From Thermoplasmata archaeon (GTDB taxonomy: Archaea > Thermoplasmatota > E2 > DHVEG-1): DNA of 48,068 nt. The DNA lies in assembly GCA_030640585.1 (NCBI GenBank), contig DAOWIZ010000018.1:1-48068 (forward strand). The letters run 5' to 3'. The position numbers and the translations under genes are program-made. A model generated the notes under the pieces. It saw only the letters and a program-made list of their open reading frames with translations, did no database searches and was not told the DNA's origin. Positions 11,084 through 30,095 of this stretch are shown here, in pieces (position 1 is the stretch's first letter; each line of letters begins with the position of its first letter).

Positions 11084-11096
11084 CAGTAGTTCCGAA
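11084..11096 (+). repeat. Left terminal inverted repeat CAGTAGTTCCGAA
   Basis: Perfect reverse complement of TTCGGAACTACTG at 30083-30095. Confidence 0.9.
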
Positions 11097-11293
11097 TGTA
11101 TATTTTAAAGTTATGTTTTTTGATAATTTTGACAAACTTGATAAAAACAGAACTGTATTTTTTAATTAAAATCAATAAAAAATTGTTGGTTAGAGTGCTT
11201 TTGACTGGCATTTTTGTCTTATGCACCAACAATAAATATGATGCAGACTAAGGGATTTAAGAATTTCTATTAAGAACTGAATCGCAGGTCATG

Positions 11294-12907
11294 TTAACCA
11301 CCTGGATCAATCACAATCAACAACGTGCCAAAATACTTGGCAGTAATAATATGTCCATCGCCTACTTTACCATGAAGATGCAACCATATCAAAACATCAG
11401 CGAGTATCCATAAGTTATATAATAACACTGAGAATAAGAAATAGAACAAACGGATATGATAATTCTTAGAAGTGGTTTTAGCACGAAAACTATGCTTTTT
11501 AACACGATAACTGGTTTCAATACCCCAGCGTTTGCTATACAATAAAAATAACCGTTCAAGCAGGTCAACATCATTATTCTCAAAATGCATATTGGTCGAA
11601 AACACTCGTTTTTCACCTGTTTTGTCCTTAGCAACGATTAGATTAAAACTACAGGTTTTCATCCTGAAGCCAGTAATGACAGACGGCGCAGGAGAAAGTT
11701 CCATAGCACGCCTTATCGCATAGTTTCTCTGACCAGGCATCAGCCATTTCAACCCGAAACCATTCAACACACCAATAGACTTCGAGTCAAAGAACCCTCG
11801 GTCAAGATAAACATGGTTGATCTTAATCCGTTTTTTAGCATAATAAACAAGCCTTGTAAACAGGTCTTCCTTGGTGCTTAGAGCATTAACGGGCAAAGCA
11901 AGAAGTGTAAACCGTTTACCATTATCTACAATATTCAATGTGATAAACTTATAGCATCTATCAGTGCCCCGCTCAGGCATTTTACCAACGACCATCAGTG
12001 TCTTTCTATTTCCATAGTAGAACCATTCTGTATAATCAATGGCAACATCGACACGTTTGCGAACATCAAACATATTAGCCTGGCGAGCCATCTCCCAGAC
12101 AATTTCAAACAAAGTCTCATACATGCGCTGCATATCTTTAATATTATCATATTTCTTCAAATGATACAACAGAGTATCTGCGTCAGGGCAACGTTTACGG
12201 TATTCCTTGTAAATCTTACTTCCGCTCTCTGCGAAATTCTGATTTAAGCCCAGATGTATCAAGAGGTCAATAAACATTTTCTTGTTGTAGATGCAGTTTT
12301 TACCAAGATTCAAATCTATAAAAGGAGTAAAACGCTTTTTAAACAAACGGCAAACATCTTTTGTCTGTATGTTTCTCTGAAGTCTCTGGTTGCGCTCTTT
12401 CGTGTCTTTCTTTGGTTTTTCAGGTTCTAAGGTTTTAATATCAAACAAAATCCCAAACTTCTCAGAAACCTCAATTATTTTATCAACTGTAAAATCAAGA
12501 AGTCTTTTTGTTTCTTCATCGAGAATATGATTAATAAAATAACTAACAGTTGTCTGGTCAGGAGTTACACTAAAGCCTAGTTTGTATTTATCGCCAGGGC
12601 GTCTTTTCAAATATCTGACAAGTTTTGTTTGAAACTTAATTCCTTTTAGTTTCTGGTATAAAACAAGATTAATCATAGATGTATAATCATATTTTATTTT
12701 ACGATATGTTTTTTCCTGAAAAATTGATGTATCAAAACTTTGGAGGTATTCGGCAACGGTCACTTTAGGTTGCTTTTTGAATAGCTCAAAGGTTTTATAA
12801 ATCTCCAGTTCTATGTTTCTTCTGGAGACACGCATTCTGCTTTGGCTCATGTGTTGTCTCCAGACCCCTTGAGAAGGACCAATTCTCTTGGGGTCATCCT
12901 TTTTCAA
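11294..12907 (-). CDS. IS4-like DDE transposase (ISH3/IS1634-type size and layout)
   Basis: Putative DDE motifs: VAIDYTEWFYYG, VYLDRGFFDSKSIGVL, RWGIETSYRVKK; full-length uninterrupted ORF near the left TIR. Confidence 0.88.
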   Translation of the reverse strand: MKKDDPKRIGPSQGVWRQHMSQSRMRVSRRNIELEIYKTFELFKKQPKVTVAEYLQSFDTSIFQEKTYRKIKYDYTSMINLVLYQKLKGIKFQTKLVRYLKRRPGDKYKLGFSVTPDQTTVSYFINHILDEETKRLLDFTVDKIIEVSEKFGILFDIKTLEPEKPKKDTKERNQRLQRNIQTKDVCRLFKKRFTPFIDLNLGKNCIYNKKMFIDLLIHLGLNQNFAESGSKIYKEYRKRCPDADTLLYHLKKYDNIKDMQRMYETLFEIVWEMARQANMFDVRKRVDVAIDYTEWFYYGNRKTLMVVGKMPERGTDRCYKFITLNIVDNGKRFTLLALPVNALSTKEDLFTRLVYYAKKRIKINHVYLDRGFFDSKSIGVLNGFGLKWLMPGQRNYAIRRAMELSPAPSVITGFRMKTCSFNLIVAKDKTGEKRVFSTNMHFENNDVDLLERLFLLYSKRWGIETSYRVKKHSFRAKTTSKNYHIRLFYFLFSVLLYNLWILADVLIWLHLHGKVGDGHIITAKYFGTLLIVIDPGG

Positions 12908-12980
12908 ACTTTGATTGTATTTTTCTAAAGTAGTTTGAAAATAAGGTTTAGATATGTTTCTGGAGTCATAGAGTTATACC

Positions 12981-12997
12981 ACCCCCAAAGTGGGGGT
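12981..12997 (+). terminator. Perfect GC hairpin followed by TTT
   Basis: ACCCCCA-AAG-TGGGGGT then TTTGG; between the divergent tnp and cargo genes. Confidence 0.5.
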
Positions 12998-13058
12998 TTT
13001 GGAATGAAAGTATCTTTTTTATTTCTTTCCCAAATCAACTGCATTTATCGCTACCTTA

Positions 13059-13139
13059 TTTCCTACCTATTTAACTACATCTACAATCTCATATATAAAC
13101 TTTTAGGTAGGAAAATTAAAAGTGTTAAGGGTAGTTAAA
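13059..13139 (+). promoter_or_regulatory. Candidate operator/promoter of AbrB-methyltransferase operon
   Basis: Inverted repeat TTTCCTACCTA(13059-13069)/TAGGTAGGAAA(13104-13114) and TTTAACTAC(13070-13078)/GTAGTTAAA(13131-13139) around TATA-like ATATATAAAC. Confidence 0.5.
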
Positions 13140-13188
13140 AAAGCAGTAAAAGTTATATAATTAAACTGCCATTTAACAATTGATATAT

Positions 13189-13368
13189 ATGGGATTTAAA
13201 ACCACAATTGCTAAAGCTTCTACCATCTCAAATTCCTTTAGAACAACAGTACCAGCTGCAATAATAAACCAGTTCAATTTAAACGATGGGGATAAACTAG
13301 ATTGGGAACTAAAAGCAGAAAATGGTAACTTAATTGTAATTATAAAACCTGAGAAGAAGGAGATGTAG
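13189..13368 (+). CDS. AbrB/SpoVT-like DNA-binding protein
   Basis: MGFKTTIAKASTISNSFRTTVPAAIINQFNLNDGDKLDWELKAENGNLIVII; start revised from 13180. Confidence 0.75.
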   Translation: MGFKTTIAKASTISNSFRTTVPAAIINQFNLNDGDKLDWELKAENGNLIVIIKPEKKEM

Positions 13369-13375
13369 TGAAAGC

Positions 13376-14995
13376 ATGCTATTGGTAGAACAAAAGAAGA
13401 GATTACAATTGAATAAGGTTACATTTAGACAATATCTTGCATTAGTATTTATAATTACTGAACTAAGGGAGGAATTTCGCTGTCCATCCCCTGACGAAAT
13501 TAAAAAAGAAATTCGGTTTTCAACAGATCGATTACTTAACACTACACTAAAAGCCTTGGAAAAAAAAGGATTTTTAATTTTTAATGGACTTGATAAAAAT
13601 CCGATAGTTGAATTAACCGAAGAAACTAAAAAGATAGAAGCAAATCTCATTGATAAATTATTTTTAATCGAAGAATACACACCCTATACTGAAATTAAAA
13701 AACAAATCAAAATCGTCGACACCCCAAAAAACTTTCTTAATCTATTAATAGAAACAAAAATCATTCCTGGGGGCAATATCATCTCACTTATTAATCAAAA
13801 AACCATCGTAAATAGATGGTATGGACTACTCGAAGAATTTCCACCAAGCCTTGTTTGGAACAAACTCAAAGAATACAATATAAAATCAGAACATACAGTT
13901 CTTGATCCTTGCCTTGGAAGTGGAACAACAATTACAACAGCAAGATTATACGGAACCAAAACAGTTGGTATCGATATAAATCCAACATCAACTTTTGTAT
14001 CCACAGTTAAAACAACATGGAATGTAGACCTAAAAGAGTTAAAAGAAGAGATAAATTCTATTTTAAATGAATACCAGACAGCATGTCCAATTCTCGATAA
14101 CATCAGAACAACAACCGAAGCATTAGAATGTATGACTTGGATGGAAAAACATCAATGGCTTAAACCAAGAAACCAAAATGATGTTGCATTTATCAAGGAA
14201 AGAATTAAAGAGATAAGAAATAATAAAATAAAGAATATCTTCCTGCTTGCCTTAATAGAAGCAGCAGTTGAAGCATCAAATGCCTCATTTTGTCCAGGGA
14301 CATCTTTTTACCCATTTAGGAAAAAACCAGAGTTTGGATATTGTTTCGAAAACAAACTTAGAATGATATATGAAGATCTTTTTTTAATTAAAAAAAGTGA
14401 TTTAAAGCCAAAGCCAACACAGATCTACAATAAAGATATGAGAGAAATGGCCGATTATATTGAACCAAACAGCATTGATTTTTTACTTACATCTCCACCA
14501 TATCCAAATGATTTGGAATATACAAGACAAACACGTCTTGATTTATTTCTGTTAGATTATGTTAAAAACATGGGGGATGTAAAAGAGATCAAGAAGCAAA
14601 TGATCAAAGGGAGTACTAAGCTGATTTTTAATGAAAGTAACAGCGCTCAATATATCCAAAAATTCCCGATAATAATGAACGTTGTCTATAGATTAGCAGA
14701 AAAGTTTAAAGATAAAAATTGGGGGTGGGACTATCCACGGATGATCCAGGAATACTTCGGAGACATATATTTGGCCTTAGAAGCTACTCAGAAGGTAATG
14801 AAAGACAATAGATATGCACTCTATGTTGTTGGAGACCAATCATACAAAGGGGTTCTAATACCTGTTGGCAGAGCGATGATTGATATTGCAAAAGATCTCA
14901 ACTATAAGAATGCAAAACTCGAAGAAGTAAGAATCAGAAGAAGCACACTTCATACTATGCCTTTAATAGAAGAAATTGTCATACTTCAAAAATAA
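13376..14995 (+). CDS. DNA methyltransferase (amino-MTase, DPCLGSGTT ... TSPPYPND)
   Basis: Motif I DPCLGSGTTITTARLYG...VGIDINP and motif IV LLTSPPYPNDLEY; N-terminal winged-helix-like region. Confidence 0.88.
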   Translation: MLLVEQKKRLQLNKVTFRQYLALVFIITELREEFRCPSPDEIKKEIRFSTDRLLNTTLKALEKKGFLIFNGLDKNPIVELTEETKKIEANLIDKLFLIEEYTPYTEIKKQIKIVDTPKNFLNLLIETKIIPGGNIISLINQKTIVNRWYGLLEEFPPSLVWNKLKEYNIKSEHTVLDPCLGSGTTITTARLYGTKTVGIDINPTSTFVSTVKTTWNVDLKELKEEINSILNEYQTACPILDNIRTTTEALECMTWMEKHQWLKPRNQNDVAFIKERIKEIRNNKIKNIFLLALIEAAVEASNASFCPGTSFYPFRKKPEFGYCFENKLRMIYEDLFLIKKSDLKPKPTQIYNKDMREMADYIEPNSIDFLLTSPPYPNDLEYTRQTRLDLFLLDYVKNMGDVKEIKKQMIKGSTKLIFNESNSAQYIQKFPIIMNVVYRLAEKFKDKNWGWDYPRMIQEYFGDIYLALEATQKVMKDNRYALYVVGDQSYKGVLIPVGRAMIDIAKDLNYKNAKLEEVRIRRSTLHTMPLIEEIVILQK

Positions 14996-14998
14996 AAA

Positions 14999-15922
14999 CT
15001 ACACTCTTATTGTAAATCGATTGTTGATACATTGTCGGATTTTATCACGTAATAAATCTAACGTAATGTCATGTTGTTTACCTGTTATAGACTTTTGAAT
15101 GTCCTCTGGTGTTGTGACATAATATTTATCAGTAGATAAATTGAATTTATCCTGATTTTGATTATATACTAATTTAACAGTTAAAAAATAAAAAAACTTA
15201 TCCTTGGGTAGAGGAAGATTTGTCACATCCTGTAATGGAAAAGCAAAAGTCCTTCTAAAAAAAGCAAATAAATAATCTTGTAAAATCCAAATTGATGGAA
15301 CACGAATCTCTTCGAATAGATACCCTTTATCAATCATCTGTAAAGAAGACCCTTTAACTGATGCTTTAGAGTTCAATCCATATCCATAATTTTTACTAGT
15401 GACATTAATTCCATGGTAGGAATCTCGAATACATTCGACAATGCCCCTTGTGCCTGTAGTACTATCAGATTGATACTCAATATGCGCTACTCTTCCTATC
15501 CTTTCAAAACCATCCTGATCAATTATTTCACCTATCAAACCATCGGCAGTTCCAAATGGACGAATGCCAACCTCTCCTGTAACAACTATATTATTACCAT
15601 CAAAAAATTGCTGTTTTATCGAATTGAAAATAGTATTATCTTCAAAGAACCTATAGGGGCAAATAATTACTGGATATGGAACATCACTCCAACTTGGATT
15701 ATGCCAAGCTGTACATGCGCCTGTTTGGTGTGTTAGTAGCCGATTCCCTTCATCATCAGTTAAATTCGAAATTTTGTTATCTGGATCGCAAGGGCGGTTA
15801 TCAGACATGAATGGACAGATGTGGGTTCTTCTGTAACTCTGGGGTTTTTCAGATGTGTTTGTTGGTGGATAGCCAAAAATTTCTGCAACATATTTATTAT
15901 GTTTATTATCTGATGAAGCCAT
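14999..15922 (-). CDS. NotI-family type II restriction endonuclease
   Basis: NotI-like layout: VAEIFGYPP, ICPFM...RPC, GAC, IICPYRF (candidate Cys4 metal site), VAHIEYQSDSTTGT catalytic-like segment, FRRTFAFPL. Convergent with the MTase. Confidence 0.75.
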   Translation of the reverse strand: MASSDNKHNKYVAEIFGYPPTNTSEKPQSYRRTHICPFMSDNRPCDPDNKISNLTDDEGNRLLTHQTGACTAWHNPSWSDVPYPVIICPYRFFEDNTIFNSIKQQFFDGNNIVVTGEVGIRPFGTADGLIGEIIDQDGFERIGRVAHIEYQSDSTTGTRGIVECIRDSYHGINVTSKNYGYGLNSKASVKGSSLQMIDKGYLFEEIRVPSIWILQDYLFAFFRRTFAFPLQDVTNLPLPKDKFFYFLTVKLVYNQNQDKFNLSTDKYYVTTPEDIQKSITGKQHDITLDLLRDKIRQCINNRFTIRV

Positions 15923-16015: not shown

Positions 16016-16987
16016 TTACACATTTTTCGTATCATCATATTCGTCATCTAAATTTTCTTCTTTTGAGGAATTGTATGTGAAAAAATCAGTTAAACTTGAT
16101 TGTTTTTTATCTTTTTCTTGTTCTATTGCCTCAAAAAAGTTTGAGGTTAATGCTTTAGATCCAGAAATTGAAGAATGACTTAATTTTGTATACTTTATCG
16201 TAAATGCAAATTGTTCAAGTGATACATTTTCGAACCATCCAACATGTCTTCCAATATTAACTGCTTCAGTCCATTTTTTTTCATTAATTATTCCATATGG
16301 TCTTAATATTTCTCCAAGCTTTTCTTTATTTATCTCAATTCCGTTTTTGTCTTCTCCATAATATTTTTCAATAGCTCGTAAAACAATAAATTGTAATAAA
16401 TAAATTGGATGGCAACTATTTTTTAATATTCTAAATGCCCCGATACCTTTTGATAACAATGGAACATTAATTTTTGGAAAAGATTTACTAAATTTTCCCC
16501 CAGCGCAACTAAAGAATTTTTGAGATTTTGGATAATACCAAAGAGTGAGACCCAACTTTTTCCCTAGTTTAGAACTAATATCTTTTTTACAAACATTAAA
16601 AACTTCTAAAGCAGTAGAACGATGATTCTGAGGGGACACAAGAAAGACATCAACATAAGGTATAAAGTCAGTTCCAGTTAGTAATTTAAGACTTTGAGGA
16701 GATATATTAGCATAAGCTAACAATTGATCTTTCTTGTTCGTCGGGTCACTTGTTTCTTCAATTAAAAGTACTGCATCTTTATTTTTAGAAACATATACTA
16801 AATCTGCTTCGAAAATATCTTTTTTTAATTTTATATCTTTATTTGTATGAAGTTCTACTTCATTTCCATAATATTTATAGATATTTTTATAGTTTTCAAA
16901 AATAGCTGAATCTATTTTTTCAATAAGACGATGTCTTTCAAGGTAGCCAAAATAATTTCTTTTACTACGTTCATCAATTTTTACCAA
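16016..16987 (-). CDS. Hypothetical protein, possible PD-(D/E)XK-like nuclease with C-terminal PIP box
   Basis: EADLVYVSKNKDAVLLIEETSD resembles a PD-(D/E)XK core; C-terminus KKQSSLTDFFTYN fits QxxLxxFF. Confidence 0.6.
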   Translation of the reverse strand: MVKIDERSKRNYFGYLERHRLIEKIDSAIFENYKNIYKYYGNEVELHTNKDIKLKKDIFEADLVYVSKNKDAVLLIEETSDPTNKKDQLLAYANISPQSLKLLTGTDFIPYVDVFLVSPQNHRSTALEVFNVCKKDISSKLGKKLGLTLWYYPKSQKFFSCAGGKFSKSFPKINVPLLSKGIGAFRILKNSCHPIYLLQFIVLRAIEKYYGEDKNGIEINKEKLGEILRPYGIINEKKWTEAVNIGRHVGWFENVSLEQFAFTIKYTKLSHSSISGSKALTSNFFEAIEQEKDKKQSSLTDFFTYNSSKEENLDDEYDDTKNV

Positions 16988-16990
16988 CTA

Positions 16991-18010
16991 TTACTCACCA
17001 ATGGTAATTTTTTGGAAGTCAATATCAGGATCAATGTAGGAAGCCATTCGAGAAACTAATCTTCTAATTGCAGATCTAGCTTCTGATGGATTTTCAGAAT
17101 AAATAAATAATTCATCGTCATTAATAGTCAGTTGTAATGATTTCCTTTCTCTCAGATCTAAAATATTGGCTCTATCTGGCCCCAAAGGAATGCCTATGTA
17201 TCCATGTGCCCCTCCAGATGATGTGAACATATTAAGTATTGCTTCATTACGTTTTTCTATCGTTCCTTTAATTTTTTTTATTGAAGGCATTTTAATTTTT
17301 ACAATATCTTCAATTTGACGATAAGATACACCATCAATCACTGTTTTATGTGATTGTGAGAACCCATATGATTCATCCCATTTTCTTAAAAAACTAACAT
17401 ACTTACCTGTAATGAAAATAATTGATTTTGATAAACCACTACTAAATGAAATTCTCCCTTGATTTGTCATTTCAAATTTGATAAGATCTCCATCATTCCC
17501 CATTTCAATTCCGATTTTACGTGGATGGAGCGCATGCTGTTTTTCAAGCCGATTTATCACTTCTTTTGTTTTTCTTCCTCGTACTTGGACAGTAATTCCA
17601 TATCCTGAATATTCATTATGTGGTTGGAACTGGGTTCTTTCAATAACAATTTTCCCTCCGTCTTTAACAAAGATGCGTGTCAATTCATAAAATCGTTCTT
17701 TATTTAACCAAGGGATTCGAAGAGTAGGATGTTGTCGAAGGAATTGTTCAATTTTTCTTGTTCCATCTTCATCCTGTGTATGATAAACTACAACTCCCCA
17801 GTCCCATTCATCAAAATAAAATTCAAAATCCTTGGTTGAATAATAAAATTCTTTTTCTCCCTTAGTTTCAACTGGCTTTCGTTTTTCTTTCTCAAATATC
17901 GAATGATTTGGACTAAAAAAGGCAATATATACTTTGAGATTTTTCGCTCTTGCACCTTTTTCCCAATCAACTGATTTACTCAGTAATTCTTTTAGGTGCT
18001 CTGTTTTCAT
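16991..18010 (-). CDS. Hypothetical protein, partner of the PIP-box protein
   Basis: ORF in apparent operon with 16016-16987; likely start MKTEHLKELL (ORF track start 18094 has an unconvincing N-terminus). Confidence 0.6.
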   Translation of the reverse strand: MKTEHLKELLSKSVDWEKGARAKNLKVYIAFFSPNHSIFEKEKRKPVETKGEKEFYYSTKDFEFYFDEWDWGVVVYHTQDEDGTRKIEQFLRQHPTLRIPWLNKERFYELTRIFVKDGGKIVIERTQFQPHNEYSGYGITVQVRGRKTKEVINRLEKQHALHPRKIGIEMGNDGDLIKFEMTNQGRISFSSGLSKSIIFITGKYVSFLRKWDESYGFSQSHKTVIDGVSYRQIEDIVKIKMPSIKKIKGTIEKRNEAILNMFTSSGGAHGYIGIPLGPDRANILDLRERKSLQLTINDDELFIYSENPSEARSAIRRLVSRMASYIDPDIDFQKITIGE

Positions 18011-18089
18011 CAAAGAAACCTCTTTTTGAAATATGTAATCTGAGCGGCCAGTATAACTTTTTCTATGCATAAAATCAACTTCTTTATTA

Positions 18090-18178
18090 TACAAGTAATA
18101 CTACTTAAATTTTACTTGTATATTACTTGATATACAAAAAATTTAGCAATATACAAATAGCTTATATTTGATATACAA
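18090..18178. promoter_or_regulatory. Palindromic operator cluster in divergent promoter
   Basis: TTGTATAT-TACTTG-ATATACAA (18116-18137); TTGATATACAA at 18127-18137 and 18168-18178; ACAAGTAA/TTACTTGT pair. Confidence 0.5.
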
Positions 18179-18203: not shown

Positions 18204-18395
18204 ATGCCAAAAAAATCATCTAGTGTAAAAACAAAACCCGTACCAATAAGATTATCAGAACCCATGATTGAAGCAATTGACTTTGCAATAGAACTTGGCC
18301 AAGGCAATGATAGAAACGATGTCATCCGAACAGCTATTGCTAATTATTTAAGAGAGTTAAACGTGACAAATGAAATGAAAAAAAGAAAAGTTTAG
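18204..18395 (+). CDS. Ribbon-helix-helix (CopG-like) regulator
   Basis: VPIRLSEPMIEAIDFAIELGQGNDRNDVIRTAIANYLREL. Confidence 0.78.
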   Translation: MPKKSSSVKTKPVPIRLSEPMIEAIDFAIELGQGNDRNDVIRTAIANYLRELNVTNEMKKRKV

Positions 18396-19837
18396 TTTGC
18401 AATCGTATATAATTTTTCATGTAATTTTACCATTGCAATTGTATCTTGTTTACAATATTTTAATAGATTTTGTTTATGCTTTTCTATTTCTTTTTTATCA
18501 TACTTTTTTAACATCATATATGCAAAAATTGCACTTGCTGTTAACCCATCAGAAATATCAAATCCGTCATAAGAAAATTCTGGAATTAAAACGGGACAAG
18601 TTACTTTTACTGAAGTTTTACCATGAAATTCTGGATTGTAATAATTATTTCTAATTATTGCCTCTAAATCAACTAATCTTTCTAAAATCACGTCAAAATC
18701 TTTTTTTAGATCTAGATATAGACCTTTAAGATAGTTAATAATCCTTTTCTCAAAACTACTATAGACAATAATACTTCCTGCTTCTTCTAAATCCAATATT
18801 AACTTTTTTGCGAGGTCTTCCCTGTAATCTCCATCAGGATTTGATAAAAATTCAAAATGGTCAACTATATGCCCAGGTTTTGAACATTTATGAATTGAAT
18901 ATTGTGTTGGAATTTGTTCATAAGGCTTTGTGTCGGGTAGTAATGGCAAAGCTGTCTGATAAGTTTCAAAATCTAAATAAAAAGATGGCCATATTATTTT
19001 ATCTAAATCTTTTTTTAGATTTTTATCTATATGTTGTGTATTATTTTTTACGCAGTCCTTCACTAAATTCTGTTTTGCAGATAATGAAAAACCATCAGGA
19101 ATGTCTTCAATAAATGTAACTCCCGACTGTAATAAAGTATTAAATTTTGTTTTTCCTAACCGAGGAATGTCAAAAAGATGATTTTTATATTTTTTCCCTA
19201 TACAGTCATTGAATATTTTACAATATTTACATTCATATCTGAGAGATGAAGTAGGTTTTTCATCAGTACTGGTAATATTATCTATTTGATCCCATAACCG
19301 ATCAAATTCTTTTACTTTTTCAATAACATCATCTGTATGATCAATTTCTCTAAAAAGATCTTTATCATCCATGCCCAGACGATAATCAGGAGAAATTAAA
19401 AATAAAGATATTTTTGATATATCAAATCCTGATTTATTCATTACCATTGTTGTATATGCCATATCATCAATATATTCATCTTTATCATTCATACCAGATT
19501 TTACTTCGATCATTTTCCATTTGTTATCTATTAACTCTAATATATCTGCTTTAGCTGCATAATTATCAACTAAAAAGGCGCTTTCAAAAAGAGTTGGCAT
19601 TATTCTCTTGTTTAACATATCACTTGTTTTTTTTGCATTTTCTTCAAAATTAGGTGCATATATAATCGCTCCATTTGGATAAAGATTTTGAGCTTTTTTC
19701 CCAATAGTCCTACCTTGCTCCATTAGAAATCTATCAGAGATAGTTAATGGTTTGGTAAATCCCTTGTTTCTTATAATCCATCCCAATGTTGGACAATTTA
19801 TTGCATTTAGAAATACTGTTTTATTAACATTATTCAA
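18392..19837 (-). CDS. DUF2779 family protein (RecB/Cas4-like nuclease plus RNase H-like region)
   Basis: FLNAINCPTLGWI, MIEVKSG, CKYCKIFNDC, FYLDFETYQTALPLLPDTKPYEQIPTQYSIH, CKQDTIAMVKLHEKL. TTG start at 19837 is preceded by GGAGGG. Confidence 0.75.
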   Translation of the reverse strand: MNNVNKTVFLNAINCPTLGWIIRNKGFTKPLTISDRFLMEQGRTIGKKAQNLYPNGAIIYAPNFEENAKKTSDMLNKRIMPTLFESAFLVDNYAAKADILELIDNKWKMIEVKSGMNDKDEYIDDMAYTTMVMNKSGFDISKISLFLISPDYRLGMDDKDLFREIDHTDDVIEKVKEFDRLWDQIDNITSTDEKPTSSLRYECKYCKIFNDCIGKKYKNHLFDIPRLGKTKFNTLLQSGVTFIEDIPDGFSLSAKQNLVKDCVKNNTQHIDKNLKKDLDKIIWPSFYLDFETYQTALPLLPDTKPYEQIPTQYSIHKCSKPGHIVDHFEFLSNPDGDYREDLAKKLILDLEEAGSIIVYSSFEKRIINYLKGLYLDLKKDFDVILERLVDLEAIIRNNYYNPEFHGKTSVKVTCPVLIPEFSYDGFDISDGLTASAIFAYMMLKKYDKKEIEKHKQNLLKYCKQDTIAMVKLHEKLYTIAN

Positions 19838-19920
19838 TTTTTCTTCCCTCCATTCATATATGTAAATAAAAGATGCTTTTAAATAACATTTTAAGATATG
19901 AAACATGGAGTTTTTTAATT

Positions 19921-20493
19921 ATGGGTAAAAAAGTATTTTGGTTAGATGTAGAAACTACGGGTTTAGATCCTGAACAGCAAGATATTATCCAACTTGCTTT
20001 TTTAATAGAAATCGATGGCGAAATCGCTGAAAGCCAAAATATGTTAATGCAACCTTTTAATTATAATGAAGTGCAACAAGACGCTCTTGATGTTCATGGT
20101 AGAACCATTGAAGAAATAAAAACATATCCTGATCCTCGTAAAACATATACTGATTTAATTTCTGTCCTTGAAAAATATGTAGATAGATATAATCCTTCAG
20201 ATAAGTTTCATCCAGCTGGCTATAATGCCAGATTTGACATGGATTTTTTAAGACAGTTCTTTATTAAAAATGGAGACGTTTATTATGGATCTTGGTTTAA
20301 TTATAAAGCAATTGACCCGATGTCTTTATTACACATACTTGATGGAATTGGAAGTGTTTCAATAGAGAATTATAAACTAGAAACTGTATGTAAACACTTT
20401 GATATATGTCATGATGCTCATGATGCATTAAGTGATATAACTGCAACAAGAGAACTTACAAAACTTATTTGTTCAAAATATATTAAAGGTTGA
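19921..20493 (+). CDS. DEDDh 3'-5' exonuclease (DnaQ/RNase T-like)
   Basis: VFWLDVETTGLDPEQQDIIQLAFLI, HPAGYNARFDMDFL, CHDAHDALSDITATREL; start revised to ATG 19921. Confidence 0.88.
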   Translation: MGKKVFWLDVETTGLDPEQQDIIQLAFLIEIDGEIAESQNMLMQPFNYNEVQQDALDVHGRTIEEIKTYPDPRKTYTDLISVLEKYVDRYNPSDKFHPAGYNARFDMDFLRQFFIKNGDVYYGSWFNYKAIDPMSLLHILDGIGSVSIENYKLETVCKHFDICHDAHDALSDITATRELTKLICSKYIKG

Positions 20494-20514: not shown

Positions 20515-22350
20515 TTAAAAATCGTAGAGAGAGTCAACATAGAATTTATGATGAAACGAAGAAATATTTTTAGATAAAAAAGCTAAATAATTAGAATAAT
20601 ATTTTTCGATATACTCGCAATACATTTTTCCCTCAGGCGCAATCTCGAATTGATAGTAGGTATGATTTCTTTGATTAAAATAATCTAAAAGACTATGCCT
20701 CTTTTCAGGATCATAATCACGAATTGATCTTGATTTTTCTTCAATTGAAATTTTTAGCAATCCAATAGAACCGAGCTTCATTATGTCTTCAAATAATTCA
20801 GGAGAATATAGAAAGTCAAAATCCATATTAAATTTATAAGCAAAGGAGTTTTGATAATTTTTCTGAACCCACTCTATCATCTCATAAATCTTTGTAATAA
20901 ATATCATAGGCACCTGAAAGTCCCCATGTACTCTCAAATATTCATAAAAAAACAATAGCAGCAATTCGAGTTGATATGATTTTTTAATTCTTTCTTTATC
21001 TATTTTTTTTCCTATAATGTTTTTTATATCACACCAATTTTTCTTAATTAACTTATTGCATGATTTTATATTATTATCTTTTTGGCAGAAAAAATATAGA
21101 GAGCCGCTACCCAATATTTCCATAGTGAGACTAGCCGCTAGCTTAGATTCATCATATAAAAAACGATGTGTGTCGCATATTTTAACTCGTAGGGATTTCG
21201 GTATCCCCCGCAATGCCGTACTTCCTATGTAGATTCTTTGTTTTTGAATTATTTTATTTACTTCTTTCTCGACATCGCTAATTATTGAAGGATTTTGGTT
21301 TAACAATTCTATGTACAATTTAATGTCTGGAGTTATAGCATGGGCTTTCAAATCGCATGTGCAACAAAAAACTCCTCCCCCTCGCAATTCATCTATTAAT
21401 TTTTTAGCTTCGTTAGTACCTTTATTTTTGATAAAATTTAGCAAATCATTATCGTCATATTCCCAAAAGAATTTATCCAGTTCTTGTTCTACTTCCTTTT
21501 TACTACTTGTGTCTAAAAGTTTTTTAAGCGTATATTCTAAAGCTTTTATTAGCATTATATTAGCAGCTACATTTTTTGGATGATTTATTATATTTGAATA
21601 ATAATGATACCTAGATATTAGAAAAGCTTCTCCAAGATTTATAGAAACTATTTCATCAAAAGATCTGTTTTCACCTTTTTTACCAATAACTAATTTATCC
21701 TTATCTCTTGATACATTTTCCAATATATGTTCCAAATTAAAACCAATAAAATTAATTCCAGTATGTAAACCATCACGAATAAGATAATCTATTCTATCTG
21801 CATCAATTTCTCCAGATATTATGCTGGATAGAAATTTATCTTCTTCGCTTAAACTCTTTTTCTTACCTGTTGCAATATTACCAATATTCGTAAAAAAAGA
21901 ATTTGATTTTTCGGTTATCCCTGCCTCTTTCAAAGCTTCTTTCACAACTGATTTATTACCCAGATTTGCAATTATGTTTCTCGTATACGCTTCATGCTTC
22001 CTGTATCGAGGTTGCGCTATTTTCTCCATTCTTTTAAGCCCAAGCTCTATGGTATGAGAAAAGGCAGAATGTCCTATATCATGCAATAGGCCAGCTAAGC
22101 GAATCTTTTGTCGATGCGTTTCATTAAATTCATTTTTAAACCTTTCAAAAATCAAATCAGCTATATGCATAGTACCTAATGAATGCTCAAATCTTGTATG
22201 CAATGCTCCTGGAAAAACAACGCTGGCAACGCCCAACTGTTTTATTCTTTTTAATCTTTGAAACTGTGGTAAATCTATCAATGTTTTTTCTAGCTTTGTT
22301 AATCTGATATACTTGTGTACGGGGTCAGGTATAGATGAGTCTAATTCCAT
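20515..22350 (-). CDS. HD-domain phosphohydrolase (SAMHD1/dGTPase-like)
   Basis: QLGVASVVFPGALHTRFEHSLGTMHIA, RLAGLLHDIGHSAFSHTIE, ISGEIDADRIDYLIRDGLHTG. Confidence 0.9.
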   Translation of the reverse strand: MELDSSIPDPVHKYIRLTKLEKTLIDLPQFQRLKRIKQLGVASVVFPGALHTRFEHSLGTMHIADLIFERFKNEFNETHRQKIRLAGLLHDIGHSAFSHTIELGLKRMEKIAQPRYRKHEAYTRNIIANLGNKSVVKEALKEAGITEKSNSFFTNIGNIATGKKKSLSEEDKFLSSIISGEIDADRIDYLIRDGLHTGINFIGFNLEHILENVSRDKDKLVIGKKGENRSFDEIVSINLGEAFLISRYHYYSNIINHPKNVAANIMLIKALEYTLKKLLDTSSKKEVEQELDKFFWEYDDNDLLNFIKNKGTNEAKKLIDELRGGGVFCCTCDLKAHAITPDIKLYIELLNQNPSIISDVEKEVNKIIQKQRIYIGSTALRGIPKSLRVKICDTHRFLYDESKLAASLTMEILGSGSLYFFCQKDNNIKSCNKLIKKNWCDIKNIIGKKIDKERIKKSYQLELLLLFFYEYLRVHGDFQVPMIFITKIYEMIEWVQKNYQNSFAYKFNMDFDFLYSPELFEDIMKLGSIGLLKISIEEKSRSIRDYDPEKRHSLLDYFNQRNHTYYQFEIAPEGKMYCEYIEKYYSNYLAFLSKNISSFHHKFYVDSLYDF

Positions 22351-22513: not shown

Positions 22514-22942
22514 ATGACTAAAATAATAAGAATATCAGATGAAGTATGGAACGTATTGCGGGATATGGGGAAGACAGGAGACTCGTTTGATGATGTACTA
22601 AGAAAAATATTAAAGGTTGAATCTGAGAATCAAAAAGGCCAAGACCTTACATGTAGAGGTGGCAGAATCCCGCATGGAACAAAAGTAACAGCTACATATA
22701 ACAGAGAGAGATATGAAGCTGAAATTAAAAATGGTAAATTTCGATATAATGGTAAAGCATACAATGGACCATCTCCAGCAGCTATGAGCATTACAAATAG
22801 CTCAGTTAATGGATGGTCATTTTGGGGAATAGAAAAAGAAGGAAAATGGAAACCACTAGTACATTTCAGAAAACATGTTTTTAACCAAAAAAATAAAAGT
22901 AATTCATGGAAAAAATATAAGAGAGATAATGCCAAAATTTAA
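22514..22942 (+). CDS. RHH-like N-terminus plus RAMA/DUF4357-like domain protein
   Basis: IIRISDEVWNVLRDMGKTGDSFDDVLRKIL; RGGRIPHGTKVTATYNRERYEAEIKNGKFRYNGKAYNGPSPAAMSITNSSVNGWSFWGIEKEGKWKPLVHFR. Confidence 0.7.
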   Translation: MTKIIRISDEVWNVLRDMGKTGDSFDDVLRKILKVESENQKGQDLTCRGGRIPHGTKVTATYNRERYEAEIKNGKFRYNGKAYNGPSPAAMSITNSSVNGWSFWGIEKEGKWKPLVHFRKHVFNQKNKSNSWKKYKRDNAKI

Positions 22943-23006
22943 AGAATATCTTGAATTAAAATTAAAAAAATAATTACTGTTTAAAATCTTGTTTTTCATC
23001 ATCTTT

Positions 23007-23387
23007 TTATCCTATAGTTTTCAATTCTTTATTGGCTTGAAAATTCCTCCTATCTAAACAACTTGTGCAATGAAGTTTAGAACGTGAATAATCAATAGGG
23101 TTTTTACCGCATTGCCTACAAAGCCCTTTAGCCACCCTTCTCTTTTCGTATATTTTGTTCATTTTCTCTCTTTTTTTCAGGCAGGCAGGACAATAGCGAG
23201 TCCATCCCTCAGGTCTTGGTTTGCCACAGTCATAGCAAAGACCTGCCTTCAGCCGTCTCCTATGCCATTCTCTGTGGTATTTTCTTTCACAGTCTTTGCA
23301 GTAACTTGACAACTTGTCTTTTTTCGAGTTATCATTATAAAACTGCGGTGCAGGCAGAAATCGATGACATCTAAAGCATTCCTTCAT
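23007..23387 (-). CDS. Cysteine-rich zinc-binding protein
   Basis: CFRCHRFLPAPQFY...SYCKDC; CYDCGKP...YCPACLKK; CRQCGKN...HCTSC. Confidence 0.65.
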   Translation of the reverse strand: MKECFRCHRFLPAPQFYNDNSKKDKLSSYCKDCERKYHREWHRRRLKAGLCYDCGKPRPEGWTRYCPACLKKREKMNKIYEKRRVAKGLCRQCGKNPIDYSRSKLHCTSCLDRRNFQANKELKTIG

Positions 23388-23436
23388 TGAACAACACGCT
23401 TACTCTTATCTGTTGATATACTAATTAAAGTTTCTT

Positions 23437-23460
23437 AGGGTTGGTTTTTTAAAGGGACAA
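23437..23460 (+). repeat. 24-bp motif copy 2 (AGGGTTGGTTTTTTAAAGGGACAA)
   Basis: Upstream of 23475 gene. Confidence 0.75.
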
Positions 23461-23474
23461 CTATTGTTTATTAA

Positions 23475-23972
23475 ATGATTAAAATGTATAAAAAACAATC
23501 TTTTGAAGATATGATGACATCTGAAAAAGAGGTTGCAGATTACCTGTCTCATCTTGGTATCTTTTGGGAGTATGAACGACCTGTTTTTGTATATGATGAT
23601 AAAGGCAGGCCAAGAGTTTGGACTCCTGATTTTTATCTACCTCAATTAGGTATATATGTTGAGGTCTGCGGTTCTAAAAATTTCAATTATGAATATAGGG
23701 AAAAAGTGTACAAAAACAATGGTATTTTTACTGTATTTATCCACTGGTATAAAGATAAACACAAATGGAAGAAATTTCTTGGCAAAAGATTACAAGAAAT
23801 TGAAAAATATTGGAAAAATAAAGTAGATATGATTACTAATGCTATTTTAACAGAAAAAAAAGTAGAATATCAAAAAGTTGAAAAAGGCTCTTGCCCTTAT
23901 TGTGGTTGTGATGTTTATCTCGGAAGTGAAAATACTGCCAAAATGTGTGGTTTATGTGGGGAAATATGGTAA
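23475..23972 (+). CDS. PD-(D/E)XK-like nuclease with C-terminal zinc ribbon
   Basis: VWTPDFYLPQLGIYVEVCGSKN; CPYCGCDV...CGLCGE. Confidence 0.65.
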   Translation: MIKMYKKQSFEDMMTSEKEVADYLSHLGIFWEYERPVFVYDDKGRPRVWTPDFYLPQLGIYVEVCGSKNFNYEYREKVYKNNGIFTVFIHWYKDKHKWKKFLGKRLQEIEKYWKNKVDMITNAILTEKKVEYQKVEKGSCPYCGCDVYLGSENTAKMCGLCGEIW

Positions 23973-24271
23973 AGAATGATATTGAAGAATTTATTTCAAA
24001 GTTTATTGGACAGGTTAAATCAGGTATACCAAAAGGTTGTGTGTTAAGTAGTAACTTTGATTTTGATCTTTCTGTTGTGACAACGAAAAAAAACAAAGGT
24101 AAATTAGACATACTCTTAGCAACTATGGAGCACACTTCCGATACAAAGCAAGTTCACAGATTAAAATTTTCAATCGCCGACAAAAAATCTCGTGAGGAAA
24201 GCACTCAATATTTAAATAAAGTGATACAAAATTTCGCATCAGAACTATCTAAATTAGATCAATCAAAATAA
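23969..24271 (+). CDS. Small hypothetical protein (possible Trypco-like domain)
   Basis: ATG at 23969 overlaps the upstream stop (ATGGTAA). FDFDLSVVTTKKNKGKLDILLA...HRLKFSI; domain suggestion is weak. Confidence 0.5.
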   Translation, partial: VKNDIEEFISKFIGQVKSGIPKGCVLSSNFDFDLSVVTTKKNKGKLDILLATMEHTSDTKQVHRLKFSIADKKSREESTQYLNKVIQNFASELSKLDQSK

Positions 24272-24377
24272 CCTCATTTTCAACATCTTTTTATCCTCTT
24301 AATAAACCATTTCTACATGGGTAAAATATTTATCATAGGAGATATATAATAACATGTAGGTTTTAGACTCGATAAAT

Positions 24378-24815
24378 ATGACTAACGAATCAAAAATTGT
24401 AAACGGAATACAATACAAAAAATGCAGTAAATGTAAACAATTCAAACCACTACAACAGTTTTACAAAATAAAGCGTGGTACTTTTGGTGTAAAGAGTGAA
24501 TGCAAGAAATGTAGTATAATAAGATTTAATGACTGGATAGAAAATAACCGTTCTAAATATCTAAAAACAGGACGAATGTATGCTAGCAACAGATACAGAA
24601 ATGACCCCGTGCATAGGGAACGGGCAAAACAGATGAGTCGTGAATGGAGAAAAAACAACCCTGATTACCTAAGAAATTGGAAACTTAAAAACCCTGAACA
24701 GCAAAGAGAATGGGTAAAGGCCAATCCTGATTATCATAGAGAACGGCAGCGGATATTTAGAAAGGAAAACCCAGATTATTACAGAAATCTACGAGCAATG
24801 AAGCAGAAGGTGTGA
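24378..24815 (+). CDS. Zinc-binding, basic repeat protein (phage/HNH-associated type)
   Basis: KKCSKCKQFKPLQQFY...SECKKC followed by recurring NPDYxR units. Confidence 0.6.
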   Translation: MTNESKIVNGIQYKKCSKCKQFKPLQQFYKIKRGTFGVKSECKKCSIIRFNDWIENNRSKYLKTGRMYASNRYRNDPVHRERAKQMSREWRKNNPDYLRNWKLKNPEQQREWVKANPDYHRERQRIFRKENPDYYRNLRAMKQKV

Positions 24816-25039: not shown

Positions 25040-25041
25040 AA

Positions 25042-26127
25042 TTAAGTTATTAAATTTTTTATCGTTTCTAAACTGTTCTCAATATCGTCCTTAATTCTCT
25101 CAAGATTTGTCCTAATATACGAACTAGCGTTGTCAATCTGAGTTAACTTCGACTCAAAACTTTTAAACATAAAAAGCTTTGATTTCATATCCTCAATTTC
25201 TTTTTGAATCTCTCCAATTGGGATCTCTTTTTTATCATCTTTTATTGTAACAAAAAGTCTAGCAACTCTAAATGCAAAATATAGCCCATATTCATCAAAA
25301 GAAGTAACAATATATTTTTTTGTTATTTTCACAGGACGAAGAGCTGAAGGTATTTGTTGTTGGTTCTTAAACAAAAATATACCAAATTTAGATCCTCTGT
25401 TCTTTATCGCGTCATTAACTTCATCTATAGTTCTTTTATGAGAATATGCTGGACTATCTTTACATTCAACTATGATTCTTTTTTTATTATCGCTATCTAT
25501 ATCTATATTAATATCACCAATTTTATTGGTCTTTCCTAATCTATCGCCGACATATTCAACTTTATCTTCATAGGGTGAACAAATTTTCTCAATTTGTTCC
25601 AGGACAGTATCCTCAAATTTCCCTCCTTTCAAAGTAGTTTTTGAAACAATTTCTTCTTTTACTTCTTCTTTTAATAATTCATCTCTCAACTCTTTAATTT
25701 TCTCAAAAACCTCTTCCTTTAGTTTCTTGATAGGTGAACCTTCTTCATAAGGGCTTAATAAATCACCAATTTTTCCTTTTTTTAAATCAAAATATTGTTC
25801 AAACATAAGACGAAATTTACCCATACAGCTAGCATTATTCTCCATATCAAACGTTTTTTCTATCATATCCTGTATATTTTCGTTTTGGTATTCAAATTGT
25901 TTTAAAAGTTTGTTAAATTCTTTCTCGATATAATCAACGTTTTCAGTTAAAGATAGATTCCTCAAACCTATTGTACCCATAATAACTGCTTTTTTAATGA
26001 ACTCTTCTCTTCTATCTGGCTTTATATCTTTTAAAATTTTATATGCATTAATATCATCGACTTCTAAATTATGAATTATTATTTTTTCATCTCGTAGCTC
26101 GATGTTTTTATCCGATCCAGAACTCAT
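25042..26127 (-). CDS. PD-(D/E)XK nuclease-like protein with coiled-coil C-terminus
   Basis: GKFEDTVLEQIEKI...GDINIDIDSDNKKRIIVECKDSPAYSHKRTIDEVNDAI. Confidence 0.65.
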   Translation of the reverse strand: MSSGSDKNIELRDEKIIIHNLEVDDINAYKILKDIKPDRREEFIKKAVIMGTIGLRNLSLTENVDYIEKEFNKLLKQFEYQNENIQDMIEKTFDMENNASCMGKFRLMFEQYFDLKKGKIGDLLSPYEEGSPIKKLKEEVFEKIKELRDELLKEEVKEEIVSKTTLKGGKFEDTVLEQIEKICSPYEDKVEYVGDRLGKTNKIGDINIDIDSDNKKRIIVECKDSPAYSHKRTIDEVNDAIKNRGSKFGIFLFKNQQQIPSALRPVKITKKYIVTSFDEYGLYFAFRVARLFVTIKDDKKEIPIGEIQKEIEDMKSKLFMFKSFESKLTQIDNASSYIRTNLERIKDDIENSLETIKNLIT

Positions 26128-26819
26128 TTTCTTTCCCCCAATTCTTCTTTAATAATTTTCCTAAGTTTCTTTTCAAAAACTTCAGCGAAGATTTCAGCTT
26201 TTTTACGCGTTTCAAACTCTAATTCTTCTTCATATAATTGTTGATATTTCTCAGTATTTTCTGGCTCTGTTTCTTCTTTATCATAAATTTGTAAAGTCTC
26301 TGGAAGTTTTTCAATATCATTAAAAATTTTTTCTATATTTATTTTAGGGCAATAGTCTATCTCTAAAGAATATCTATCCTTGATATAATCAATAATCTTA
26401 TTTTTATCTAATCGAAATTTATTATCTTCTTTTTTTTCTAAAAACCCTGCCAATGAATTTATTGTAAACCTGCTTGTATACATGTTATTAATTTCCTTAT
26501 TTATATCAAATAATCGATCAAGAGGCTCTTTACCTAACCATATATGCCTACAGACACCATTGCAGATTAATTTATAATCACAAAAGAAAACATCTTTAAA
26601 ATCTCTAATCGGCACTTCTTTTTCATCAACAAGAGACTTGCTTGCTTTCCAACGGCCTACAATATCTACAAGTCGTTCTAAATCCTTATTTACATCTTTG
26701 AAGTGAACAAAGTAAAAGCTGTTATCTATATAATATTCATGATCTTCAGCAATCTTAATCGCATCAGATAAACTTGGACTACTTGTTTTAGATGAAAATC
26801 TAATAATGAATTTTGACAT
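26124..26819 (-). CDS. Hypothetical protein, translationally coupled partner of 25042-26127
   Basis: 4-bp overlap with downstream gene; likely start MSKFIIRFSS. Confidence 0.55.
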   Translation of the reverse strand: MSKFIIRFSSKTSSPSLSDAIKIAEDHEYYIDNSFYFVHFKDVNKDLERLVDIVGRWKASKSLVDEKEVPIRDFKDVFFCDYKLICNGVCRHIWLGKEPLDRLFDINKEINNMYTSRFTINSLAGFLEKKEDNKFRLDKNKIIDYIKDRYSLEIDYCPKINIEKIFNDIEKLPETLQIYDKEETEPENTEKYQQLYEEELEFETRKKAEIFAEVFEKKLRKIIKEELGERK

Positions 26820-26948
26820 AAAATAAATATAAATGTCTTTTCTAATAAAACTTAGTATCAAGTTAAAAATTATATTTTAATATTTTACAACCTCTTAAAA
26901 TCTTGAAATTGAATAGATTTTTATACTACCAATTTCGCTTTTTCATTA

Positions 26949-27680
26949 ATGACAAGAATAAAGATGGTCCAAGAGCAGGTTGACGAAGCGCTTAAACTTC
27001 TTAAGCAAGGTTACACACCTAAACAACTTGCAGAGAAATATGGAGTGCATAGGTCCGTTATTTATAGAAGGGTTAAACAACCCAATGTTGCGAAGGACAT
27101 TCCAGTTAAAATTAAAAACAAAGTTATCAAAGCAATCAAAGACGGGCATACAAAAGCAGAAGCAGCACAGATGTATGGATTGAATATAGGAACTGTATAT
27201 AACTTTACTAAAGGCATTGCAGAAGGGCATAGATCACAAGGTAACCACATCATTAGAAAGAACGGGATAAAACTCCTAAATAGACTGATGACAGATGGTT
27301 ACCTTATCTCAGATTTCAACGTACCTGTTGTTAGAAATCTTCAGAGCAAATTTCCAATAATAAGAACAGCTCGTTATAAGGAGAAAACTTTTTTTTATCT
27401 ACCTGGCCGTGAGGAGGAGACAATTGAGGCTTTTTTCCGTGAGAAACCAGATAGAATAATTAGCTATGTGTCAATAGAAGAATTATCTTATCTTTTAGGT
27501 GTGAAGTTTTCCAGGAAAACCACGATGACACTTGTAAGAAAATATAAAGGCAAACATAAGAGTTATTGGAGAAGCAGACGTCTTATACAGAGGAGTATTT
27601 TTGACTGGGTAGATGATAACCCATTTAAAAACAATATTGAAACAAGTTTTAGATTAATGCCAAAAAAAGGAGAATGGTGA
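26949..27680 (+). CDS. Protein with two N-terminal HTH motifs (Hin/resolvase-like HTH)
   Basis: ALKLLKQGYTPKQLAEKYGVHRSVIYRRV and AIKDGHTKAEAAQMYGLNIGTVYNF. Confidence 0.65.
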   Translation: MTRIKMVQEQVDEALKLLKQGYTPKQLAEKYGVHRSVIYRRVKQPNVAKDIPVKIKNKVIKAIKDGHTKAEAAQMYGLNIGTVYNFTKGIAEGHRSQGNHIIRKNGIKLLNRLMTDGYLISDFNVPVVRNLQSKFPIIRTARYKEKTFFYLPGREEETIEAFFREKPDRIISYVSIEELSYLLGVKFSRKTTMTLVRKYKGKHKSYWRSRRLIQRSIFDWVDDNPFKNNIETSFRLMPKKGEW

Positions 27681-28385: not shown

Positions 28386-28386
28386 T

Positions 28387-28632
28387 TCAACCAAAAAGTT
28401 CCTCAAACCAACCTTTTTTCTTATTCTTTGGTTTTGGCTTATAAACACCTAGAATTTGCCCTTTTTTACCTTTTGAAGCATTTTTCTGTCTTAATCTATA
28501 ATACTTTCTTGTCGTAGGATTATAAATACGTTTTTTTGGCATTATTACATTTTTCAAATACCACATCCTATTATTTACTTTCCTATTTAATTTCTTGTTA
28601 ATTCTGGTTAACTGATAAAAAAATCTATTCAA
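28387..28632 (-). CDS. Small basic hypothetical protein
   Basis: Lys/Arg-rich ORF with apparent start/stop overlap to 27723-28385. Confidence 0.45.
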   Translation of the reverse strand: MNRFFYQLTRINKKLNRKVNNRMWYLKNVIMPKKRIYNPTTRKYYRLRQKNASKGKKGQILGVYKPKPKNKKKGWFEELFG

Positions 28633-28807
28633 AAACCACCTCTTGACTGCATTATTTCATCCCCCCTCAAATTTAGGATCTTAACTCACTAGGAAGAGGC
28701 ATACTACTTTTACCCATCTCCCCTCTGTTAGAGATTCGTTCTTTCTCATTTTTTTACCTTAGCATCTACTGATATAGTTTAATCTTGCTTTTCATTACGC
28801 CTTTTTT

Positions 28808-28963
28808 ATGACAAATAAGAAACAAATATCTTTCCGTTTGTCAAAAGAACTAGACGACTGGGTAACAGCCCAAATAGAGTCAGGACGATTTGAATCCTGG
28901 ACTGAGGCTGTTGAACAGGCAGTAGTTCTTTTGCAGGAAAGATTAGGCGAAAAAAAACAATAG
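28808..28963 (+). CDS. Small ribbon-helix-helix protein (51 aa, absent from ORF track)
   Basis: MTNKKQISFRLSKELDDWVTAQIESGRFESWTEAVEQAVVLLQERLGEKKQ*. Confidence 0.65.
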   Translation: MTNKKQISFRLSKELDDWVTAQIESGRFESWTEAVEQAVVLLQERLGEKKQ

Positions 28964-29018
28964 ATATTTTATTTGTAATATCTAAGCGAAAGACTGTTTT
29001 TTAAAAATTAATTGAAGG

Positions 29019-29047
29019 AAGCAAATTCATCAAACGAGAATTTGCTT
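29019..29047 (+). terminator. Stem-loop terminator candidate
   Basis: AAGCAAATTC...GAATTTGCTT, 10-bp perfect stem, then T-rich sequence; downstream of 28808 gene. Confidence 0.55.
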
Positions 29048-29085
29048 TCTCTCTGATTTTTTGCTTTTGTGAACTAGTGTTTTTC

Positions 29086-29421
29086 TTATTCAGAGGGCAA
29101 TCGATAAAAAATATCTTTACGTGACAAACCTTCTACCTCAATATCTACTCCACCGAACCCATTATCTATAACAATTTCTATTTCTGATCCGCATTTATCA
29201 CAAAGATAGATCTCCTCTGTATATACTATACTTTCTTCATGATTTTCTCCACCCATATTAGGTGGATTAACCATGATTTTGTCAGATTCAAAAGATTCCC
29301 CGCATTTTGGACATTTACATTTCACTTCTATTGGTTCTTGTTCAATAGTGGCGATTCCTCCAAGCCGAGAAAAACTCCCATCTGAGTTATCGTTTTTACT
29401 TAATGGAAACCATTCTTTCAT
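29086..29421 (-). CDS. Zinc-ribbon hypothetical protein
   Basis: CKCPKCGESFES...YLCDKCGSEIEI; GGAGG before ATG of MKEWFPLSK. Confidence 0.6.
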   Translation of the reverse strand: MKEWFPLSKNDNSDGSFSRLGGIATIEQEPIEVKCKCPKCGESFESDKIMVNPPNMGGENHEESIVYTEEIYLCDKCGSEIEIVIDNGFGGVDIEVEGLSRKDIFYRLPSE

Positions 29422-29521
29422 TAATTTTTCCTCCAATTATTATATCAAGCATGTCCATCTATATTAAATTACTTATTACATTGTTGTAAAAGGATAATTA
29501 AATGATACAAATGAGCATTAG

Positions 29522-29977
29522 TTAATCAAGTCTTATCTGATGATCTGAAAAAACATCCCCATCTTTATTGGTTAATCTAACAATAGCATATTTGCAATCT
29601 GTAGCATGGATGTACTTGGGTAACAATCTTTTCTTGTTGTTACAATAGCCATACAAATTTACATGAGGTTTCCCATTACGATGCGTCTTTTTTTCATTAG
29701 GATCAAATTCAACACCAATCCAAAAAACAACATCATCACCTTCATTTTGAGGGATTATTGCACTACCACTTCCATTACATTGATGGTTGCTACTAGGATG
29801 AACAAAATATCCCTCTTCATTAACTCCATCTCTATATTCTACATCATTAAGATCAAAATCTTCTCCTTTTAGATAGTAATCACTGATATATTTTTTATTT
29901 GCAGTAAAATTTATAGATTTTTTTTCATCCCATGTTTGGCCTGAACAAATATGAACTCCAATCACTGATTCACACAT
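29522..29977 (-). CDS. Hypothetical protein at right end of the element
   Basis: ORF; start MCESVIGVHI overlaps the stop of a 21-aa upstream ORF. Confidence 0.5.
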   Translation of the reverse strand: MCESVIGVHICSGQTWDEKKSINFTANKKYISDYYLKGEDFDLNDVEYRDGVNEEGYFVHPSSNHQCNGSGSAIIPQNEGDDVVFWIGVEFDPNEKKTHRNGKPHVNLYGYCNNKKRLLPKYIHATDCKYAIVRLTNKDGDVFSDHQIRLD

Positions 29978-30082
29978 AATACCACTCTTTCTCATTTTCT
30001 AAATCATTTTCATCAATATTATTGTTTGTGCTCATAATCTTTTCCCTCCATATAAAATTTCATTCCTTCGTAGATTTTTACC

Positions 30083-30095
30083 TTCGGAACTACTG
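30083..30095 (-). repeat. Right terminal inverted repeat TTCGGAACTACTG
   Basis: Reverse complement of 11084-11096. Confidence 0.9.

Follow-up and report, generated by a model that had tools for sequence, protein, structure and literature searches.

A 48,068-nt stretch of DNA of a Thermoplasmata archaeon (contig DAOWIZ010000018.1, positions 1-48,068; referred to here as the window) harbors, at positions 11084-30095, an element of 19,012 bp that is probably a cargo transposon, in which an ISH3-like DDE transposase would act on two unlike ends and a helix-turn-helix (HTH) protein would choose the target. This reading builds on features of the DNA itself: the ends and their duplications, empty sites in relatives, two classes of target, the stacking of elements and the phylogenetic fit between HTH proteins and targets. 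The family to which the element belongs is apparently undescribed so far.

Boundaries of the window element and its relatives

The sequence-only reading of the window had proposed a DDE transposon with 13-bp terminal inverted repeats and a 5-bp target-site duplication, whose removal repairs an interrupted host gene in frame, and each part of this—boundaries, duplication, gene interruption and DDE transposition—holds, with relatives now forming a family. Both ends are exact at 11084 and 30095, with TCCTC on each side. The right end (reverse complement, terminating at 30095) reads CAGTAGTTCCGAAGGTA and matches the left end over 13/13 bp, or 16/17 including GTA. Their common 13-mer, CAGTAGTTCCGAA, was matched twice in the window at ≤2 mismatches, both times exactly and never between the ends, and the source genome (1.29 Mb; a metagenome-assembled genome (MAG), 81% complete, in 102 contigs) contains no exact copy beyond the two element ends. 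Across the related genomes searched, its own included, the 13-mer has 105 exact matches vs. 9 for a reversed control. Mean GC content is ~0.31 within the element vs. ~0.36 outside.

Joining the flanks yields HTFHDVIPTTFLGAPNEDTALSVLP in a single 446-amino acid (aa) frame of a TctA/COG1784-like protein. The uninterrupted gene, which the sequence-only reading had suggested looking for, was found intact at the insertion point in 11 relatives, with IP.TF[LI]GAP read through. A search with the joined host protein found many genomes with an intact gene and others in which a break falls at residue 86/87.

The best NCBIfam model for the window transposase is ISH3 (149.8 bits, below the curated cutoff of 225), which is likewise matched by 22/22 aligned relatives. 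Invariant in the transposase alignment are D291, D369, E464, Y457, R460 and K471, and the Y-(2)-R-(3)-E-(3)-(R) motif is present (Y457, R460, E464, R468; all invariant). DDE_Tnp_1/DUF772, ISH3, IS4 and IS1182 were the only transposase families matched. The enzyme had been described as IS4-like; the DDE type stands but IS4 sensu stricto does not, as the protein is ISH3-related and duplications are 5 bp throughout the elements, which fits ISH3, whereas IS4 proper generates duplications of about 10 bp (PMC2266710). Relatives reach 67% identity across most of the length, with some match in 56/100 related genomes. A scan with the transposase alignment recovered further family members in organism-named contigs, and the viral contigs scanned contained no relative of the transposase.

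The family resides mainly in Thermoplasmatota, with members also in DPANN lineages and Methanomicrobia, and its elements possess two unlike ends, one adjoining the transposase and the other, of 35 bp, lying on the cargo side. The consensus of the former, CAGTAGTTCCGAAAGTA, follows ~190 bp past the transposase stop in nearly all full-length cases, and the second end was absent within the 3-4.6 kb first examined around the transposases of full-length relatives. The cargo-end consensus is CAGTASNTCCGAATGYAAAAATCTACGAAGGAATNA, which the right end of the window element fits. Outside the window, 14 convergent pairs of unlike ends carry identical 5-bp duplications, ~11 of them distinct (some pairs represent one element seen in two loci), so that the same ends recur with other duplications, as had been proposed for a check on further copies. 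Complete elements measure 1199, 1374, 2936, 3079, 3954, 6029, 7030, 7766, 9955 and 17940 bp (window: 19012 bp), and an element of 7573 bp with identical 5-bp duplications was found in a Nanoarchaeota contig. Some complete elements, e.g. those of 1199 bp (G017) and 6029 bp (G025), have no visible transposase gene and thus look non-autonomous. Three loci with both ends and duplications (L181:6598-7972, L160:7828-9027 and L161:1678-7707), in which no transposase gene was seen, were probably moved in trans.

The Methanomicrobia relatives (L125:12483-14830, L124 and L128) have ends of the CAGTA[GC] type that belong to this family. L125 represents a 2.3-kb end pair of the size of an insertion sequence (IS); no HTH gene was found in these three loci, which are possibly ancestor-like forms. 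In G046, two same-strand end 13-mers lie 23 bp apart in each of two contigs (L034, at G046:C48:89-124, and G046:C87:89-124).

Target classes and the candidate target selector

Targets were classed from flanking DNA, not from the HTH protein. Class A insertions hit the COG1784 gene within the motif HDxIPTTF[LI]GAP, at its L/I codon, a site carrying element ends in 12 genomes of 10 genera (G000, G007, G009, G010, G016, G020, G028, G032, G033, G037, G038 and G049). Duplications agree across both sides in G016, G020, G037, G038 and G049 and differ slightly between sides in G009 and G028; the G020 element has the opposite orientation. The gene also breaks at this point in G012, G021 and G030, there at contig ends. 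Contigs stopping exactly at the COG1784 point (L249, G030:C46; L252, G012:C1; L251, G021:C26; L242, G032:C145) suggest mixed occupied and empty sites, or differing stacks, within populations. According to the sequence-only reading, ends always lying beside the same sequence would refute the proposal. Many relatives do share the exact site, but since they differ there in length, cargo, duplication, end subtype and once in orientation, this points to targeted insertion and not to a misplaced boundary.

Class B insertions lie upstream of promoters. Among 56 distinct transposase-end flanks, 35 have a TTTATATA-like TATA box that starts 8-11 bp past the duplication (mode 9), vs. a mean of 4.4 and a maximum of 13 in shuffled flanks (2000 shuffles); cargo-end flanks have a TATA-like box at this distance in 3/31 cases. 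Adenine occupies +5 in 43/56 and +6 in 43/56 transposase-end flanks, matching the expectation for a B recognition element (BRE), and the transposase end constantly faces the promoter. The window duplication is bordered by T and G; among class B flanks, A borders the duplication in 29/56. Downstream lie housekeeping genes, named from sequence and not by family search; they include those for the thermosome (7 loci) and purH (5) and, at one or two loci each, S19e, EF-1 beta, CDC48, S2, S3Ae, S15, L3 and a PEP synthase/PPDK-like protein. Two Nanoarchaeota members (L116:3328 and L120:5646-13219) adjoin sequence resembling a tRNA 3′ half (T-arm, acceptor strand), where neither ARAGORN nor Rfam called a tRNA.

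The mobility module had been taken to comprise one transposase alone. This needs revision: an HTH gene is also conserved, residing at or near most cargo ends of the family, and it tracks the target. In a tree of 48 HTH proteins, class A (8 proteins) forms one clade with support of 100/100, class B (15) occupies one side and class C (2, Nanoarchaeota) another; the three classes require 2 changes, the minimum possible, compared with a mean of 8.8 in shuffled data (0/200 as low). On the transposase tree, class A alone requires 3 changes, the AU test rejects its monophyly (p-AU 0.0089), and the window enzyme falls together with that of the promoter-inserted G019 element. As the HTH tree sorts perfectly by target and the transposase tree does not, the HTH protein is likely the target selector.

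We therefore propose the following scheme. The ISH3-like transposase would act on the transposase end and the 35-bp cargo end, with the target cut in a 5-bp stagger, and the HTH protein, product of a second mobility gene, would pick the target by binding it, or a factor bound to it, and recruiting the transposase. The window-type HTH clade would direct insertion to the fixed point in the COG1784 gene, and other clades to positions upstream of TATA boxes, ~9 bp away and with the promoter on the side of the transposase end; TBP/TFB may be used in the latter case. That the HTH protein is an exchangeable module, one clade specifying a fixed gene point and others an assembled promoter (TBP/TFB on BRE/TATA), is a tentative extension to which we give slightly less than an even chance.

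Several observations weigh against this scheme. Class A transposases, too, are clustered (two groups) and could thus contribute to target choice; the HTH gene lies 0.3-3 kb from the cargo end, not at it, in several class A elements, and none was linked to the G049 element. For several HTH proteins, the class B label was assigned through an equal duplication located on a different contig of that genome. An AlphaFold model of the HTH protein displays helical HTH-like domains and a C-terminal domain (pLDDT 76, pTM 0.44), but a fold search with it matched no PDB structure at E≤0.001 and hence provided no fold-level tie to a known selector. Beside the transposase, the MazE/AbrB-type gene is a possible third gene of the module. 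A guide RNA in the transposase 3′ region was considered but found no support: RNAalifold returned no consensus structure for 28 sequences and Rfam no match in the element.

Stacking, mosaic structure and cargo

At 18 distinct tandem junctions, two element ends are separated by just 5 bp. Most of these elements are stacked head-to-tail, and wherever the outer sides can be seen the same 5 bp recurs there, one duplication being shared by the stack, as expected if elements insert again and again at a single point. Decay or recombination within such stacks might then yield larger mosaics such as the window element, which itself looks mosaic because it contains an internal cargo end of a second type, 1.3 kb from the outer one. 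This end type, CAGTAGATGCTAAGGTA, also occurs at the COG1784 site in G016. Probably, then, the window element unites outer ends and a transposase of the first type with a class A HTH gene and an end of the second type.

Other accounts of target choice appear less probable. The transposase alone might set the target, as proposed for TnGBS-type enzymes, with the HTH gene being a regulator or stability gene that co-diverged through linkage. In promoter-targeting Mutator-like elements, a motif inside the transposase tracks specificity (PMC3942029), and 6/8 class A transposases do form one clade; we nevertheless regard it as unlikely, given the rejected single class A clade, the grouping of the window enzyme with that of G019, the perfect sorting of HTH proteins by target and the position of their genes at or near most cargo ends. 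Still less probable is that class B insertions simply favor AT-rich or bent DNA, with gene-damaging events being removed by selection. It is true that TATA regions have a high AT content and that an element landing upstream of BRE/TATA leaves the gene undamaged, but survival alone does not provide a fixed distance. The set spacing, with its mode of 9 bp, the unvarying orientation, the A at +5/+6 as in a BRE and the absence of the pattern at cargo ends all argue against this reading.

As to the window element itself, the 19 kb may never have moved as a unit but have arisen from two successive insertions at the same point, followed by a deletion across their junction. The complete second-type end inside the element and the frequency of head-to-tail stacks with one duplication are in keeping with this history, and because such stacks are common, the agreement of the outer duplications is not in itself proof that everything moved together. 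Yet the outer ends are of one inverted-repeat type (16/17 bp), a single element of 17.9 kb exists elsewhere and the 28771 junction showed no trace of another transposase end, making this course of events a minority option, if the most plausible of the rivals. A genomic island or assembly join merely resembling a transposon is highly improbable: although the incomplete, fragmented MAG and the frequent ending of relatives' contigs at these sites invite the thought, the boundaries are base-exact in many independent assemblies, the two sides of one gene turn up in separate contigs with matching duplications, and neither a tRNA in the window nor an integrase among the scanned window proteins was found.

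The genes carried between the ends (Table 1) suggest a role in defence, with no recognised complete defence system beyond a putative restriction-modification pair. Cargo of other elements includes M28 peptidases, beta-helix proteins, an Eco57I-type methylase, a helicase with DUF559, a HerA-like ATPase, and C25 and C14 peptidases.

Table 1. Coordinates of the window element, its cargo and the interrupted host gene
Feature	Position	Strand	Remarks
Host gene 5′ part, COG1784/TctA-like	10826-11083	+	residues 1-86
Left target-site duplication copy	11079-11083		TCCTC; from sequence, relatives' end pairs also with identical 5-bp duplications
Transposase-side terminal inverted repeat	11084-11100	+	CAGTAGTTCCGAATGTA
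DDE transposase, ISH3-like	11294-12907	-	537 aa; reads toward left end; DDE_Tnp_1 match
MazE/AbrB-type small DNA-binding protein	13180-13368	+	adjoins transposase; homologues in G038, G020 and G019 elements, also transposase-adjacent
Type II-like DNA methyltransferase	13376-14995	+	N6_N4_Mtase; PADLOC MTase_II 6.1e-38
NotI-like restriction endonuclease candidate	14999-15922	-	weak NotI match (0.00082), below Pfam cutoff
Two proteins without family match	16016-18094	-	323 and 367 aa
Cas4/RecB-like nuclease with DUF2779	18392-19906	-	
DEDDh exonuclease	19873-20493	+	
HD-domain phosphohydrolase, dGTPase-like	20515-22350	-	
VapB/RAMA protein, two zinc-ribbon HNH-like proteins, Holliday-junction-resolvase-like nuclease	22514-24815		
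Mrr-like restriction endonuclease candidate and adjoining protein without assignment	25042-26861	-	Mrr_cat 0.0032, below cutoff
Conserved HTH protein, proposed target selector	26949-27680	+	class A clade
Internal second-type cargo end	28736-28771	-	CAGTAGATGCTAAGGTAAAAAAATGAGAAAGAACGA; 36/36 bp identical to G033 end at COG1784 site
Two small open reading frames between internal and outer cargo ends	29086-29995	-	
Outer cargo end	30060-30095	-	CAGTAGTTCCGAAGGTAAAAATCTACGAAGGAATGA; 33 match points vs. extended cargo-end consensus
Right target-site duplication copy	30096-30100		TCCTC; from sequence
Host gene 3′ part	30101-31183	+	residues 87-446

Relation to known systems and significance

The archaeal IS group ISH3 shares with the window element the NCBIfam match, 5-bp duplications, archaeal hosts and the Y-2-R-3-E-(3)-R motif. 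The window transposase scores below the model cutoff, however, and is ~200 aa longer N-terminally than the matched stretch, and unlike ends, an HTH partner, cargo of up to 19 kb and targeted insertion did not appear in the descriptions of ISH3 consulted. Bacterial Mutator-like elements (TnGBS/ISLre2/ISKra4) are large, too, and their DDE transposition places them upstream of promoters at a constant spacing, in an orientation given by their unlike ends (PMC3942029). The class B relatives resemble them in distance and orientation, the window element belonging to the other class. They differ in that TnGBS combines a Mutator-like transposase with bacterial sigma-A promoters, as opposed to an ISH3-like enzyme and archaeal TATA/BRE here, and in that TnGBS specificity is assigned to a transposase motif, with no gene-internal target class, where we propose a separate protein.

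Tn7, in its TnsD-type insertion, unites a 5-bp duplication, unlike ends, cargo, one conserved attachment gene and a separate target-choosing protein, and the present family, with its proposed selector, is alike in outline on each count. Here, though, the attachment gene is interrupted and the HTH protein has no recognised relation to TnsD; TnsA/B/C-like genes, including an rve-type TnsB and the TnsC ATPase, were not recognised among the scanned window proteins. Casposons and other large archaeal integrated elements are comparable in size, terminal inverted repeats and nucleases, but the window protein scans gave no match to a casposon Cas1-like integrase.

A 2019 survey stated that archaea had so far yielded no composite DNA transposons with passenger genes (PMC6563490), and we found no account of this family, or of TATA-directed archaeal transposition, in the open-access literature. 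Promoter-directed DDE transposition as such is known from TnGBS; its archaeal, selector-linked and cargo-carrying version appears to be new. The family shows large, passenger-carrying DDE transposons in archaea, with two precise kinds of targeting. Transposases of the same group that are paired with different HTH clades and targets provide natural contrasts by which the origin of target choice can be tested. Promoter-proximal insertion of this kind, upstream of BRE/TATA, would give archaea a counterpart of Ty3 and TnGBS. A targeted inserter this compact, with two proteins and a capacity of 19 kb, may also be of practical interest.

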